Shown piece by piece: positions 39,306 through 54,024 of a stretch of DNA of 64,000 bases. Positions within the stretch are counted from its first letter, which is position 1; the number at the start of each line of letters is the position of its first letter. A program made the translations under genes and the position numbers. The stretch is from Clostridiales bacterium. GTDB taxonomy: Bacteria > Bacillota > Clostridia > Lachnospirales > CAG-274. Location: the NCBI GenBank assembly GCA_021204175.1, contig JAJPZT010000059.1, positions 1-64,000 of the forward strand, written 5' to 3'. The notes beneath the pieces were generated by a model. It was not told where the DNA came from, did not search any database, and saw nothing but the letters and a program-made list of their open reading frames with translations.

Positions 39306-39374
39306 CACCTCTCCGTCAGCAACACTGATTTTAAAAAATCAGTGTTGCTGCCACCTCCCCTCAAGGGGAGGCTT
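39306..39374 (-). repeat. CTCCCC dispersed repeat, copy a
   Basis: Minus strand GCCTCCCCTTGAGGGGAGGTGGCAGCAACACTGATTTTTTAAAATCAGTGTTGCTGACGGAGAGGTG. Confidence 0.75.
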
Positions 39375-44038: not shown

Positions 44039-44082
44039 GGCTCCCCTTGAGGGGAGCTGTCAGCGAAGCTGACTGAGAGGTG
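44039..44082 (+). repeat. CTCCCC dispersed repeat, copy c
   Basis: GGCTCCCCTTGAGGGGAGCTGTCAGCGAAGCTGACTGAGAGGTG, identical to copy b. Confidence 0.8.
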
Positions 44083-46362: not shown

Positions 46363-46391
46363 TTGACACATAACATCTGTTGTGATATTAT
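46363..46391 (+). promoter_or_regulatory. Sigma-A promoter of copA
   Basis: TTGACA-17 bp-TATTAT; spacer carries an imperfect dyad around AACAtcTGTT. Confidence 0.7.
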
Positions 46392-46442: not shown

Positions 46443-48932
46443 ATGGAACGGAAATTTAATGTTACGGGAATGAGCTGCGCCGCCTGTTCAGCCAGGGTTG
46501 ACAAGGCTGTCAGAGGGCTTGAAGGCGTGAAAGAGGTAAACGTTAATCTCTTGCAGAACAGAATGACCGTTGAATTTGACGAAAACGCCGTCGGCGATAA
46601 TGAAATAATTGAGGCTGTTGTTAAAGCGGGCTACGGAGCATCTGTTTTCGGAAAGAAGGCGGAAAAAGCCGCTGAAGAGACGTCCGACGAAAGCTATAAG
46701 GTTAAGAGACGGCTCATAATTTCAATATGCTTTTTAATTCCTCTTATGTATGTGAGTATGGGACATATGATAGGTCTGCCGACACCTTCGGTTATTCATG
46801 ATTATCCCCTTATCATGGGACTGAGCGAGTTGTTTTTAACCTTGCCGATTATGTATGTAAACGATAAGTTTTACAAGACAGGCTTTAAAACGCTGTTTAA
46901 GCTTTCCCCAAATATGGACAGTCTTATTGCCATAGGCTCGGGAGCAGCATTTTTATACAGCTCGGTGACGCTTTTCAGAATGGCTCTTGACCCAATGGAT
47001 ATGTCTCTTATGCACGAACTCTACTACGAGTCGGCGGCTACTATTTTGACCCTTATTACCGTAGGAAAATATTTGGAGAGCCGTTCGAAAAAGAAGACCT
47101 CCGACGCCATAACCAAGCTTATGAATTTAGCCCCCAAAACAGCCGTTGTTGTGAGAGAGGGCAAGGAGGTTGTTATTTCCTCAGATGACGTTGTTGTGGG
47201 AGACATAGTTGTGGTTAAAAGCGGTATGTCAATTCCCGTTGACGGGGTGATTACCGAAGGGACAGGGTCTGTTGATGAATCTGCAATAACAGGGGAAAGT
47301 CTCCCTGTGGACAAAAAGCCGGGAGATAACGTAACCGGAGCAACTGTAAACAAAAGCGGTTACTTTAAGTTTAAGGCTTCAAAGGTCGGCGAAGACACAG
47401 CCCTTTCCCAGATTATAAGGCTTGTGGAGGATGCCGCCGGGTCGAAAGCACCTATTGCAAAGTTAGCCGACAAGGTAGCAGGGGTTTTCGTTCCCACGGT
47501 TATTGCCATAGCGGTTTTGGCGGCGGTTGTTTGGCTGCTTTTGGGTTATTCCGTAGGCTTTGCCTTAAGCTTGGGAATTGCCGTTTTGGTTATAAGCTGT
47601 CCCTGTTCTCTGGGGCTTGCTACGCCTACTGCCATAATGGTGGGAACAGGAAAGGGCGCAGAGCTGGGCATTTTGATAAAGTCCGCCGAAAGTCTTGAAA
47701 CAGCCCATTCCATAGACACAGTTGTTTTGGACAAAACAGGAACTATTACAACAGGCTCGCCGAAGGTAACGGATATTTACCCGATTAACACAAGCAAAGA
47801 TGAGCTTCTGAAAAAAGCCGCTTCAATCGAAGCCCTTTCGGAACACCCTTTAGGCAAGGCAATCTGTGAGGAATACGGAAAAGGTGAGCTTTTCGAAGCC
47901 AAAGACTTTGTTCAAAAGCCGGGTGAAGGTGTTAAAGCTGATGTTTCGGGCAAGACCCTTTCAGGGGGAAATAAAAAAATGATGACCGCCGAGGGCATAG
48001 ATATTTCTTTTCTTGAGGATAAGGCGAGAGAGGGAGCGGACGAGGGGAAAACTCCCCTGTATTTTGCCGAAAACGGAGTATGTATAGGAGCAGTGTTTAT
48101 TGCAGACGCCATAAAGCCTTCAAGTGCTCAGGCTGTTTCGGAGCTTGAAAAACAGGGAATTGATGTTATAATGGTAACAGGGGACAACAAAAAGACCGCC
48201 GAAGCCATTGCAAAGAAAGCGGGAATTAAACACGTTATTTCCGAGGTTTTGCCGGAGGATAAGGAGGCTGAGGTGAGAAAGCTTCAGCAGTCCGGCAAAA
48301 AGGTAGCTATGACAGGCGACGGAATAAACGATGCTCCGGCTTTAACAAGAGCCGACATAGGCATAGCCATAGGAGCAGGAACGGACATTGCCATAGATTC
48401 CGCAGACATTGTTTTAATGAAAAACGATCTTTTGGATGTGCCTGCGGCAATTAAGCTCAGCAAGGCGGTTATGAAGAATATTAAGGAAAATTTGTTTTGG
48501 GCATTTTTCTATAATATTATAGGCATACCCGTTGCCGCCGGAGTTTTGTATATTCCTTTCGGAATAAAGCTTAACCCTATGATAGGGGCTGCGGCAATGA
48601 GCTTAAGTTCAGTTTTTGTTGTTTCGAATGCTTTAAGGCTGAGATTTTTCAAAACAGGCTATGAAAAAGCGGCTGTAAATAATAATATTATTAATGAAGA
48701 AAGCATAAAGGAGGAAAAAATTATGCAGAAGAAAACAATTAAAATCGAGGGTATGATGTGTACTCACTGTACAGGCAGTGTTTCAAAGGCTCTTAACGCT
48801 CTTGAGGGCGTTGAAGCTGAGGTAAGCCTTGAAAATAAGTGCGCCGAGGTTACACTTTCAAAGGACGTAAGCGATGATGTTCTTAAGTCAACGGTTACGG
48901 ATCTCGGTTATGAAGTTATTTCAATAAAATAA
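46443..48932 (+). CDS. copA: copper-translocating P1B-type ATPase fused in frame to a C-terminal CopZ-like HMA domain
   Basis: GMSCAACSARVDKAV, SCPCSLGLATPTAIMVGTG, DKTGTIT, MTGDGINDAPAL; C-terminal KIEGMMCTHCTGSVSKALNALEGV. Confidence 0.93.
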   Translation: MERKFNVTGMSCAACSARVDKAVRGLEGVKEVNVNLLQNRMTVEFDENAVGDNEIIEAVVKAGYGASVFGKKAEKAAEETSDESYKVKRRLIISICFLIPLMYVSMGHMIGLPTPSVIHDYPLIMGLSELFLTLPIMYVNDKFYKTGFKTLFKLSPNMDSLIAIGSGAAFLYSSVTLFRMALDPMDMSLMHELYYESAATILTLITVGKYLESRSKKKTSDAITKLMNLAPKTAVVVREGKEVVISSDDVVVGDIVVVKSGMSIPVDGVITEGTGSVDESAITGESLPVDKKPGDNVTGATVNKSGYFKFKASKVGEDTALSQIIRLVEDAAGSKAPIAKLADKVAGVFVPTVIAIAVLAAVVWLLLGYSVGFALSLGIAVLVISCPCSLGLATPTAIMVGTGKGAELGILIKSAESLETAHSIDTVVLDKTGTITTGSPKVTDIYPINTSKDELLKKAASIEALSEHPLGKAICEEYGKGELFEAKDFVQKPGEGVKADVSGKTLSGGNKKMMTAEGIDISFLEDKAREGADEGKTPLYFAENGVCIGAVFIADAIKPSSAQAVSELEKQGIDVIMVTGDNKKTAEAIAKKAGIKHVISEVLPEDKEAEVRKLQQSGKKVAMTGDGINDAPALTRADIGIAIGAGTDIAIDSADIVLMKNDLLDVPAAIKLSKAVMKNIKENLFWAFFYNIIGIPVAAGVLYIPFGIKLNPMIGAAAMSLSSVFVVSNALRLRFFKTGYEKAAVNNNIINEESIKEEKIMQKKTIKIEGMMCTHCTGSVSKALNALEGVEAEVSLENKCAEVTLSKDVSDDVLKSTVTDLGYEVISIK
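48723..48932 (+). CDS. copZ: CopZ-like copper chaperone, nested in-frame start inside the copA ORF
   Basis: ATG at 48723 preceded by AAAGGAGG (48707-48714) with 8-nt spacing; product MQKKTIKIEGMMCTHCTGSVSKALNALEGVEAEVSLENKCAEVTLSKDVSDDVLKSTVTDLGYEVISIK. Confidence 0.65.
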   Translation: MQKKTIKIEGMMCTHCTGSVSKALNALEGVEAEVSLENKCAEVTLSKDVSDDVLKSTVTDLGYEVISIK

Positions 48933-48957: not shown

Positions 48958-49003
48958 GCCTCCCCTTGAGGGGAGGTGGCACACGTAGTGTGACGGAGAG
49001 GTG
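48958..49003 (+). repeat. CTCCCC dispersed repeat, copy d
   Basis: GCCTCCCCTTGAGGGGAGGTGGCACACGTAGTGTGACGGAGAGGTG. Confidence 0.75.
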
Positions 49004-50436: not shown

Positions 50437-53400
50437 ATGAAGAAACGACTTTTGGCTGCTTTAACGGCTGTTGTTATGGCGGCGGCAAGCGTTAATTTGG
50501 CAGTGCCTGTTTTCGGACGGGCTACCCCAAGTACGGACACCTATGAATACAGAAACACAAAAGGGCTTGAAGCGGACTATGTCGACGGCGCACTTATTCT
50601 TACGTGGCCTTCCGTAGCCAAGGACGGAACACTTTTAAACCAGAACCCTTTGACAGCCTATGCTCAGTCAGACGAGGCTGTAGATTCGGCTGACCCTATG
50701 GCAAGCTGGACTATGCCCTACAGAGGTCTTATTGTAAACTATAACGGTTACAGCCCGTCATACAGCGCAAGCAAGGTAAGTATAAGCCTTACAGGCGAAG
50801 AAGAGGTTTATATGGGCTTTGTTGAAGGCGAAGCAGACGGCTGTCAGACCATACTTGACTATGCCTATGATTCAAATGCATCAGCTTACCTTACAGGCAA
50901 AACTTCTCACGTTGACACAACCGTTGTAACAACAGGCTATGCTACATCCTACAGAATAGATTATTCCGAGGACGGCACAAACTGGACAGCAGCCGACACA
51001 ACATCAACCTTCAACACACAGAAAAAGGTTGATATGCCCGTTCAGGAAGGCGTAACAGCCAAAACAGACAAAAACGGCAATGAATATATTCAGGATAACA
51101 AAAACACTGTTTTCCTTGTTACACAGCAGGTTGAGCAGTTTCCGAACGATATAGAGCTTGAAGAGGGCGAAACCTACTACGTAAGAGTTGTTCCTCTTGA
51201 TTCAAGCGGAAACGAAATTACAATAACAGATGAAGATGCTGAGGATTTCGCCATTTCCTTTACGGCTGAAAACAGCAACACTATAAAGGTTCCCGCATTC
51301 CCCACAGTTGTAGGCGGCGGAACATATACCTCAGGCGGAAGATCAACTCTTACAACAGAGGGTCAGGTTTATGTGGTTACAAGTCTTGACGACAGCGTTT
51401 CAGACCCTCAGGAGGGCACACTGAGATACGGTCTTAACAAGGCAAGATCCTCTACTGACACACCTTTGACAATTGTTTTTGCAGTCGGCGGAACAATTCA
51501 TGTTGACCCGGCGGCTACAAAGAGCCAGAGAAGATTTGTTTTCGGCAGCAACCTGACAGTTGCCGGTCAGACAGCACCCGGCGAGGGCATAACCATTGCC
51601 GGAGGCACCTGCAACATTTCAGGTGAAAACATTATGCTCAGATATTTGAGATTCAGGCTGGGCGAAGGCTATGACCTTGACGGTGCTACTGCTTCAGGCA
51701 AGAACATAGTTGTTGACCACTGTACATTCAGCTGGGGTGTTGACGAAACCTTCAGTGCTAAGGAGCTTATAAACTCAACCCTTTCATACAACATTATTAC
51801 CGGCGGTCTTGCTATGGTAAACAAGAACGGCGAAAATACTACCGACGCCGAGCTTTTAAGCGGCGAAAGCGAAGCTAAGCACGGCATGGGAAGTATTATG
51901 AACGGCTATAACTCAACCATAGTTCACAATATCTGGGCAGGCAACGGAACAAGAAACCCCAGATTTGAAGGCGGCTTTACATACGGAAACAAAGACTACG
52001 ACAACCTTTTGGAATTTGCCAACAATGTTGTTTATAACTGGGGTCATATGTCCTCATACGGCGGCGACAGAGGCAAGACCGAGGGAGGCCCTAAGACCAA
52101 CTTCGAAAGCAACTATTATAAGTCAGGACCTAACACACTTGAAAAGGTAAAGGCTTATTTCTTTGACTGCGACACAGACTCAACCTACGGCGGATATAAG
52201 AGCTCATATTATATTGACGGCGGAAACATTATGGAGGGCAACGATACCCTTAACAATGATAACACAAAGGGCTTTATCGACCTTTCATCTCTTGCTTATC
52301 AGCTTGACGAAAAGGCTGAGCTTAAAATACCCTATGAGCCTACAGACGCCAAGACGGCTTATGCAGATGTTCTTGCAGGAGCAGGCGCAAGCTTTGTAAG
52401 AGACGCTCAGGACGACAGGCTTATTTCTCAGATTGAAAACGGAACAGGCAGATTTATAAACAACGAAGGCGAAGCCGGCGGATATATTACAGTCGAAAAT
52501 GCTCTGCATAATGCAAGCACAGGCGCAGCTTACGATTCGGACAGCGACGGTATTCCCGACGCATATGAAACAGCTTTGGGAACAGACCCAAGCACTGCCG
52601 ACTCAACAATTCTTATTACAGACGAAACAAGCCCTTTCTACGGCTATACATATCTTGAGGTTTACTTAAACGATATTTTAGGCGAATGGGGCGAAAACTC
52701 AGTAAGCAGCGTTGACAGCTTTACAAGCTACGCTTCAGACCGTACACTTTCAAGCGACGACATTGAAATTACGGGAATTTACGACGCAGAAGGCAATAAC
52801 ATTCTTTCAGACGGAAACACTGACCTTATCGCAGGCGAAAAGTATTATCTTGAGCTGGGCGGAAGCACCGCTATGGAAGATGTTTATAACTACAATGTAT
52901 TGTTTGACGATGAAACGGTTTCAACAAGCCTTGAATTTACACCTGAGGAAATAGGCTCATATCTGCTTCAGGTAGCTGTTGCACCCGACATTGTGGGAAG
53001 CTATGCACCTTATACAATTTCCGACCAGGTAGGTATAACTGTTCTTGAGTCGGAGGAGAATATTCCCGATTTCACCGCTGTTGATATTGGCTCGGTAAGA
53101 GAAAGCGGAAATGTTTCTTATGACGCACAGGACGGCTCAATCATAATCGAAGGCGCAGGTCTTGTAGGCAGAACCTCTGCCGCTTCAAACAGCGCAGACG
53201 ATGCTTTCTACTTTGACTATACCGAAATGACAGGCGACTTCGACATTAGTGCACAGGTTGAAATGTGGGCTAAGCTTGACTATTATCAGAAGGTCGGTAT
53301 TATGGCAAGAGCTTCCGTAGACGAGGGCAAGCCCGAATTCTATTGGAACGCAGTAACCTATATTAAAGGCGAGGATTATGAGAAATATACCGGTGCTGAC

Positions 53401-54024
53401 GGCGGAGCTATTTTGGCAAGAAATATAGGACCTTTTGTAAGAACCTCAACTAATGGCTCTGTTTCGGATATTTCAAGTTCAACTATAGGAACATTTATGA
53501 GCGTTGCCAAGAAGAGAATGAACGAAGAACAGACACCTATGTATATGAGAATGACAAGGGTCGGCGACACAATAACTCTTTACGGCGGAACAGACGGCGA
53601 AAATTGGACACAGCTCAGCTCTTATGAAACCACACTGCCCGATACCTGCTATGTTGGCTTTGCCATTGACGCAGCTCAGGACAATATGGACTTTATAAGA
53701 TATAATAAGGTTCTTATAACAAACGTTACTATAAACGGCGTAGCTTTGGGTGAAAGCGGCGGCAGCTCAGGCGGCGAAAGCGGCGGCGATGACGAAAACA
53801 ACGGTGTTGTAGGCGACGTTGACCAAAGCGGAGCAATTACCGCAAATGATGCGGCTGTGCTTTTGCAGTATATTATAGGAGAAAATACTGCCAATGATGA
53901 ATGGGCAGTTGCTAATGAGGTTGCAGACGTAAACAACGACGAGGTTGTTGATGCGGCGGATGCGGCGAAGATTTTGGCTAAGGTGCTTAATGCATCTGTA
54001 AGCTTTGAAAGAACCAATCAATAA
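50437..54024 (+). CDS. multidomain secreted pectate lyase (1195 aa) with C-terminal type I dockerin
   Basis: Signal peptide; NLTVAGQTAPGEGITIAGGTCNISGENIMLRYLRFRLGEG...VDHCTFSWGVDETFS; concanavalin-like module; dockerin GDVDQSGAITANDAAVLLQYII...ADVNNDEVVDAADAAKILAKVL. Confidence 0.92.
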   Translation: MKKRLLAALTAVVMAAASVNLAVPVFGRATPSTDTYEYRNTKGLEADYVDGALILTWPSVAKDGTLLNQNPLTAYAQSDEAVDSADPMASWTMPYRGLIVNYNGYSPSYSASKVSISLTGEEEVYMGFVEGEADGCQTILDYAYDSNASAYLTGKTSHVDTTVVTTGYATSYRIDYSEDGTNWTAADTTSTFNTQKKVDMPVQEGVTAKTDKNGNEYIQDNKNTVFLVTQQVEQFPNDIELEEGETYYVRVVPLDSSGNEITITDEDAEDFAISFTAENSNTIKVPAFPTVVGGGTYTSGGRSTLTTEGQVYVVTSLDDSVSDPQEGTLRYGLNKARSSTDTPLTIVFAVGGTIHVDPAATKSQRRFVFGSNLTVAGQTAPGEGITIAGGTCNISGENIMLRYLRFRLGEGYDLDGATASGKNIVVDHCTFSWGVDETFSAKELINSTLSYNIITGGLAMVNKNGENTTDAELLSGESEAKHGMGSIMNGYNSTIVHNIWAGNGTRNPRFEGGFTYGNKDYDNLLEFANNVVYNWGHMSSYGGDRGKTEGGPKTNFESNYYKSGPNTLEKVKAYFFDCDTDSTYGGYKSSYYIDGGNIMEGNDTLNNDNTKGFIDLSSLAYQLDEKAELKIPYEPTDAKTAYADVLAGAGASFVRDAQDDRLISQIENGTGRFINNEGEAGGYITVENALHNASTGAAYDSDSDGIPDAYETALGTDPSTADSTILITDETSPFYGYTYLEVYLNDILGEWGENSVSSVDSFTSYASDRTLSSDDIEITGIYDAEGNNILSDGNTDLIAGEKYYLELGGSTAMEDVYNYNVLFDDETVSTSLEFTPEEIGSYLLQVAVAPDIVGSYAPYTISDQVGITVLESEENIPDFTAVDIGSVRESGNVSYDAQDGSIIIEGAGLVGRTSAASNSADDAFYFDYTEMTGDFDISAQVEMWAKLDYYQKVGIMARASVDEGKPEFYWNAVTYIKGEDYEKYTGADGGAILARNIGPFVRTSTNGSVSDISSSTIGTFMSVAKKRMNEEQTPMYMRMTRVGDTITLYGGTDGENWTQLSSYETTLPDTCYVGFAIDAAQDNMDFIRYNKVLITNVTINGVALGESGGSSGGESGGDDENNGVVGDVDQSGAITANDAAVLLQYIIGENTANDEWAVANEVADVNNDEVVDAADAAKILAKVLNASVSFERTNQ

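Follow-up and report, generated by a model that had tools for sequence, protein, structure and literature searches.

A conserved ribosome-binding site inside the fused copA-copZ gene of Clostridia points to a free copper chaperone made by internal initiation

The window analysed here, the whole 64,000-nt stretch at the start of contig JAJPZT010000059.1 (assembly GCA_021204175.1, Clostridiales bacterium), carries a copA frame that continues through an AT-rich linker into a CopZ domain (Table 1). This had been noticed from the sequence alone and was confirmed: all 829 codons are open, and a second HMA domain lies at the end. Pfam places HMA in two stretches, E1-E2_ATPase and Hydrolase on the frame, which scores 609.9 bits against a cut-off of 397 for TIGR01511 (Cu-translocating P-type ATPase). 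Invariant in 40 homologues are the catalytic and transport motifs CPC (C386-P387-C388), DKTGT (D430-K431-T432-G433-T434), TGE (T283-G284-E285) and GDG.ND (G625-D626-G627/N629-D630); family score and motifs together identify a copper P1B-type ATPase. The AlphaFold2 model of the 829-aa product has a mean pLDDT of 77.7. The linker of the window gene reads ...NNNIINEESIKEEKI-MQKKTIKIEGMMCTHC; in homologues its length ranges from 3 to 141 aa (median 28), and its residues upstream of the internal Shine-Dalgarno (SD) sequence are little conserved among 71 distinct genes.

Table 1. Features of the copA-copZ locus (positions in the window)
Feature	Position	Strand	Remark
Promoter-like site of copA, TTGACA-17-TATTAT, extended -10	46363..46391	+	consensus match only
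copA-copZ fused frame, long product	46443..48932	+	829 aa plus stop, open throughout
N-terminal HMA domain, GMSCAAC, CopA type	46455..46634	+	Ala before second Cys in 140/163 homologues
A5 run, suspected indel	48664..48668	+	frame identical in L007 and L008
AT-rich linker between CopA and CopZ domain	48669..48722	+	pLDDT <50 at residues 741-760
Internal SD sequence AAAGGAGG	48707..48714	+	anti-SD energy -11.7 kcal/mol, conserved in homologues
Internal copZ start ATG	48723..48725	+	ATG in 39/44 and 45/49 fused genes (two samples)
CopZ domain and predicted free chaperone, short product	48723..48932	+	69 aa plus stop, CxHC signature

Two other observations concern the surroundings of the gene. 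A palindromic repeat (CCTCCCCTTGAGGGGAGGTGGCACACG...) directly follows it at window positions 48959-49002 and is also found at 39349-39366 and 44045-44062; allowing up to 2 mismatches, the genome contains 45 copies of the repeat's 18-base core and none of a reversed control, and the repeat looks like a dispersed element of the REP type. At 50437-54024, a 1195-aa ORF with a dockerin-like end (GDVDQSGAITANDAAVLLQYIIG) probably encodes a secreted polysaccharide-degrading enzyme, a judgement made by eye only.

Had the A5 run suffered a sequencing or assembly indel, the fusion would be an artefact and two normal genes would stand in its place, a possibility raised in the sequence-only reading together with a proposal to compare the stop position in relatives. 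Loss of one A from the run, which lies one base later than the 48663-48667 given there, does indeed yield ...YEKRL-stop upstream of the ribosome-binding site (RBS), and relatives with split, neighbouring copA and copZ exist. However, two separately assembled species of the genus (G001 and G006), 97% and 96% identical, share the A5 run, the open frame and the GAAAAAGC stretch, with no stop before the RBS in either, and the fused state is widespread across families. Because relatives this close show an identical frame, the two-gene account is refuted, and we see next to no chance that an indel explains the fusion.

The fused arrangement is common in relatives. Among 88 copA genes classified in the order, 49 were fused, 14 had a separate copZ downstream and 25 had none nearby, and matches to the full fused length recur across many families of the class. 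Where the genes are split, copA and copZ are neighbours, and copZ has its own RBS of the same kind as the internal one of the fused genes. On a tree of CopA cores (170 rows, labelled fused, split or none), no fewer than 12 changes are required to explain the fused state, which implies repeated fusion or splitting; the sample behind this tree was enriched for fused genes and so gives no measure of prevalence.

The C-terminal domain has the character of CopZ. In the window gene its copper site is GMMCTHC. A His stands before the second Cys in 114 of the 122 C-terminal domains, and all 19 separate CopZ proteins share it, as against the Ala typical of the N-terminal HMA (Table 1). A separate-CopZ profile outscores an N-terminal-HMA profile for every one of the 122 domains, with a median difference of 29 bits, and the AlphaFold2 model makes this region an ordered HMA (pLDDT 82-90) with HMA-type strand and helix order. 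The test for a CopZ copper chaperone, namely an HMA fold with a CxHC copper site, is met. The curated NCBIfam CopZ cut-offs were not reached (best score 55.7 bits versus 91 for NF033795), so we call the domain CopZ-type and not a member of NF033795. Its existence as a free protein and its binding of Cu(I) are inferred.

Not every small HMA protein can be counted as CopZ. That reading was rejected, as many of them are partners of Zn-type ATPases (DCANCA) or belong to a CxMCEAH family. The latter, distinct from CopZ and recognizable by its CxMCEAH-type motif and YEKKGLFG tail, includes G000:C21:26773-26952 (L225), L196, L202, L199, L227, L229 and L230; in G002 and G076, both of which lack the internal start, it neighbours the fused copA. 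Small proteins of the form MKKSYKIDVDCANCANKME... (L226, L205, L208, L217, L224 and others), several of them encoded near Zn/Cd-type ATPases, are possibly the N-terminal HMA of such a pump encoded on its own, which would be the copA fusion in reverse. L209, L211 and L216 have their HMA domain behind a hydrophobic helix at the N-terminus and a segment rich in Cys (GCCGSGG or similar), and are possibly membrane-anchored metal carriers.

The SD sequence lies 8 nt upstream of an in-frame ATG, exactly as first reported for this locus, and in two of the fused homologues (L173 and L269) a GTG with an SD takes the place of the ATG at the CopZ start. In the order sample, where 39 of 44 distinct fused genes have an ATG at the CopZ start, the anti-SD energy there had a median of -11.1 and a mean of -9.81 kcal/mol, compared to a mean of -5.66 when synonymous codons were redrawn from each gene's own usage (Wilcoxon P=5e-10) and of -3.03 kcal/mol at other in-frame ATGs of the CopA cores (n=780). 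Energies of -9 kcal/mol or lower were reached at the CopZ start in 69% of homologues versus 1.8% of these 780 ATGs, which puts the site well outside what chance would produce. A second sample of 45 genes from across the class gave a median of -9.0 against a null of -5.77 (P=7e-11), with 93% at -6 or lower. The P values are optimistic, since neighbouring genomes are not independent. A set of 80 loci had been found partly with a peptide pattern, KEEKIMQK, and because this pattern covers the linker, the statistics quoted come from pattern-free samples; the exceptions, which pool all loci, are the domain counts (122 C-terminal, 163 N-terminal) and the count of joint absence of SD and start given below.

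Codon choice carries the same signal. When Lys-Glu codons at the SD site were counted without reference to the presence of an SD, AAG and GAG were each used in 24 of 24 cases, versus 52/112 (AAG) and 29/112 (GAG) in the CopA cores of those genes, and each in 28 of 30 cases in the second sample. Depending on the gene, the SD is translated as Lys-Glu-Glu, Lys-Gly-Glu/Asp or Lys-Arg-Arg and so is found in each of the three codon phases; these phases, together with the codon choice, led us to reject the idea that KEE is merely a protein motif. G fills the third codon position at -13 in 69% and at -10 in 73% of the 71 distinct genes, and the remaining third positions from -22 to -1 in only 7-17%. 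The distance from SD to ATG is unchanged in 30 of 36 genes, and mRNA folding around the internal start is weaker than in the gene's median stretch in all 41 genes compared. The test for internal in-frame initiation, that is, a conserved SD-bearing start inside a longer frame beyond what protein coding needs, is met. Along with the CopZ character of the domain, the analysis shows that the frame is fused and that selection at the nucleotide level has conserved the SD and the start. Some fused genes, a minority, show only a weak SD (about -5.9) or lack one, and part of the SD signal could have come down from fairly recent split ancestors.

On a rival account, the long fusion is the sole product made and put to use, and the SD and ATG are functionless remnants of a former copZ, renewed by repeated recent fusions. 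The 12 or more changes on the CopA tree show that fusions or splits do recur, and a fresh remnant could not be told from a working RBS. We nevertheless hold this to be improbable, because mutation would have eroded a functionless SD and ATG: large, nearly all-fused clades keep the SD, its spacing and the ATG despite widely differing linker lengths and sequences, and the codon choice and third-position G amount to selection on the DNA.

SD-like sites have been suggested as general places of ribosome pausing, and since the model puts the internal SD shortly after the last transmembrane helices, it might serve as a pause that aids folding of the membrane part and not as a start. A pause has no need of an ATG at a fixed distance, yet the spacing is kept, the start is placed exactly where a CopZ protein would begin, and SD and start are missing together: an SD was found in 123 of 143 fused genes with a start versus 2 of 9 distinct fused genes without ATG or GTG at the CopZ start (P=8e-5). 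This joint absence fits a start site and does not fit a pause site, and we give the pausing account very little credence.

Free CopZ might also be made, through the same RBS, mainly from a separate shorter transcript begun inside copA. A strong promoter-like TTGAAA-16-TATAAT with an extended -10 is present at 48145-48172, and differential transcript formation has been reported for E. coli copA, to go by the title of Drees 2017 as cited in PMC7558416. Against this, only 3 of 43 genes score 11 of 12 matches in the corresponding position, the TATAAT falls within the codons of a conserved protein motif, and the element that is conserved is the RBS. As a candidate internal promoter the site was rejected, as its full score is confined to the group of the window gene and is not conserved; we consider it unlikely that a shorter transcript is the main source of CopZ.

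We compared genomes whose fused copA has no usable internal start (G002, G004, G005, G008, G076 and G096) with 42 genomes that have one. A free CxHC CopZ was found in 3 of these 6 genomes (G004, G008 and G096, in the last directly upstream of copA) versus none of the 42 (Fisher P=0.001), and the other three are without a CxHC CopZ. The table underlying this count was compiled from ORFs by eye, and because G004 and G008 are sisters it represents about two independent events; we regard the association as supporting, not decisive. Certain CopA-bearing relatives lack any CopZ, so the need for a free chaperone is not universal.

Internal initiation on a single copA transcript is the reading that we prefer. 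That one mRNA could give both a CopA-CopZ fusion and free CopZ had been put forward in the sequence-only reading, and is now strongly supported: SD and start are conserved at the nucleotide level in both samples, and where one is missing the other mostly is too; the products themselves are inferred. Translation from the first ATG would yield the 829-aa copper-exporting ATPase, in which a flexible linker at the C-terminal end carries the CopZ-type domain, while other ribosomes, starting at the internal ATG behind an SD held within linker codons, would yield free CopZ of 69 aa. In its presumed role, free CopZ would pick up Cu(I) in the cytosol and deliver it to the pump; having an RBS of its own would permit an amount of CopZ that differs from that of the pump. 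The evolutionary route is inferred: adjacent copA and copZ frames were probably joined when the stop that separated them was lost, and selection probably preserved the copZ RBS. We consider it very likely that two starts in the same frame of one transcript produce pump and chaperone, with the products and their amount inferred; likewise, the production and amount of free CopZ, its role in copper delivery and any control by copper are inferences made without protein or ribosome data.

A wider reading, which we find plausible and favour with some reserve, is that in a large part of the Clostridia the usual source of free CopZ is a start within copA, that the fusion arose more than once with the RBS kept each time, that this is a second independent route to pump and chaperone, and that the ratio of the two is set by the internal RBS, possibly in response to copper. 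Should this hold, a copper chaperone lies hidden in many gut and anaerobic bacteria, overlooked by gene finders because of its position inside copA, and evolution has arrived at a single gene for pump and chaperone along at least two translational routes: in E. coli by frameshifting, here by internal initiation. The series of split genes, fused genes with the start, and fused genes without it but with a separate copZ would allow the need for a free chaperone and its ratio to the pump to be probed.

Several known systems resemble parts of this arrangement. The CopA of Archaeoglobus fulgidus, to which the solved chain 3j09 is related, is likewise a copper ATPase that bears metal-binding domains at both its N- and C-terminal ends; we know of no internal start described for it. 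The chaperone of E. coli is the N-terminal metal-binding domain of CopA, released by a frameshift to an early stop, so that there, too, one gene gives a copper-exporting ATPase and a small copper chaperone. As PMC9548414 relates, Meydan 2017 reported programmed ribosomal frameshifting in E. coli copA and Drees 2017 confirmed it; a description is also given in PMC10187127. The Clostridia gene differs in that the chaperone would be the C-terminal domain in the same frame, reached from an internal start with an SD and with no frameshift needed. Otherwise the copper chaperone typically comes from a separate gene (PMC10187127), and a separate copZ beside copA, for example in the copYAZ and copZA operons (PMC10187127), with the same two proteins encoded side by side and copZ under its own RBS, is the likely ancestor of the fusion, an arrangement that persists in the split relatives; by comparison, the intervening stop codon is gone here and the RBS lies inside coding sequence. 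Cas11b, the product of an internal in-frame start of cas8b (PMC11899642), follows the same principle, in that the short protein acts as a partner of the full-length one; the proteins and their function are unrelated. Among the open-access papers searched, which left most subscription papers outside the scope, we found no published account of an internal start yielding CopZ from copA. Taken together, a pump and its chaperone from one gene are of a known kind; new here is that they would arise through internal initiation and not through frameshifting.
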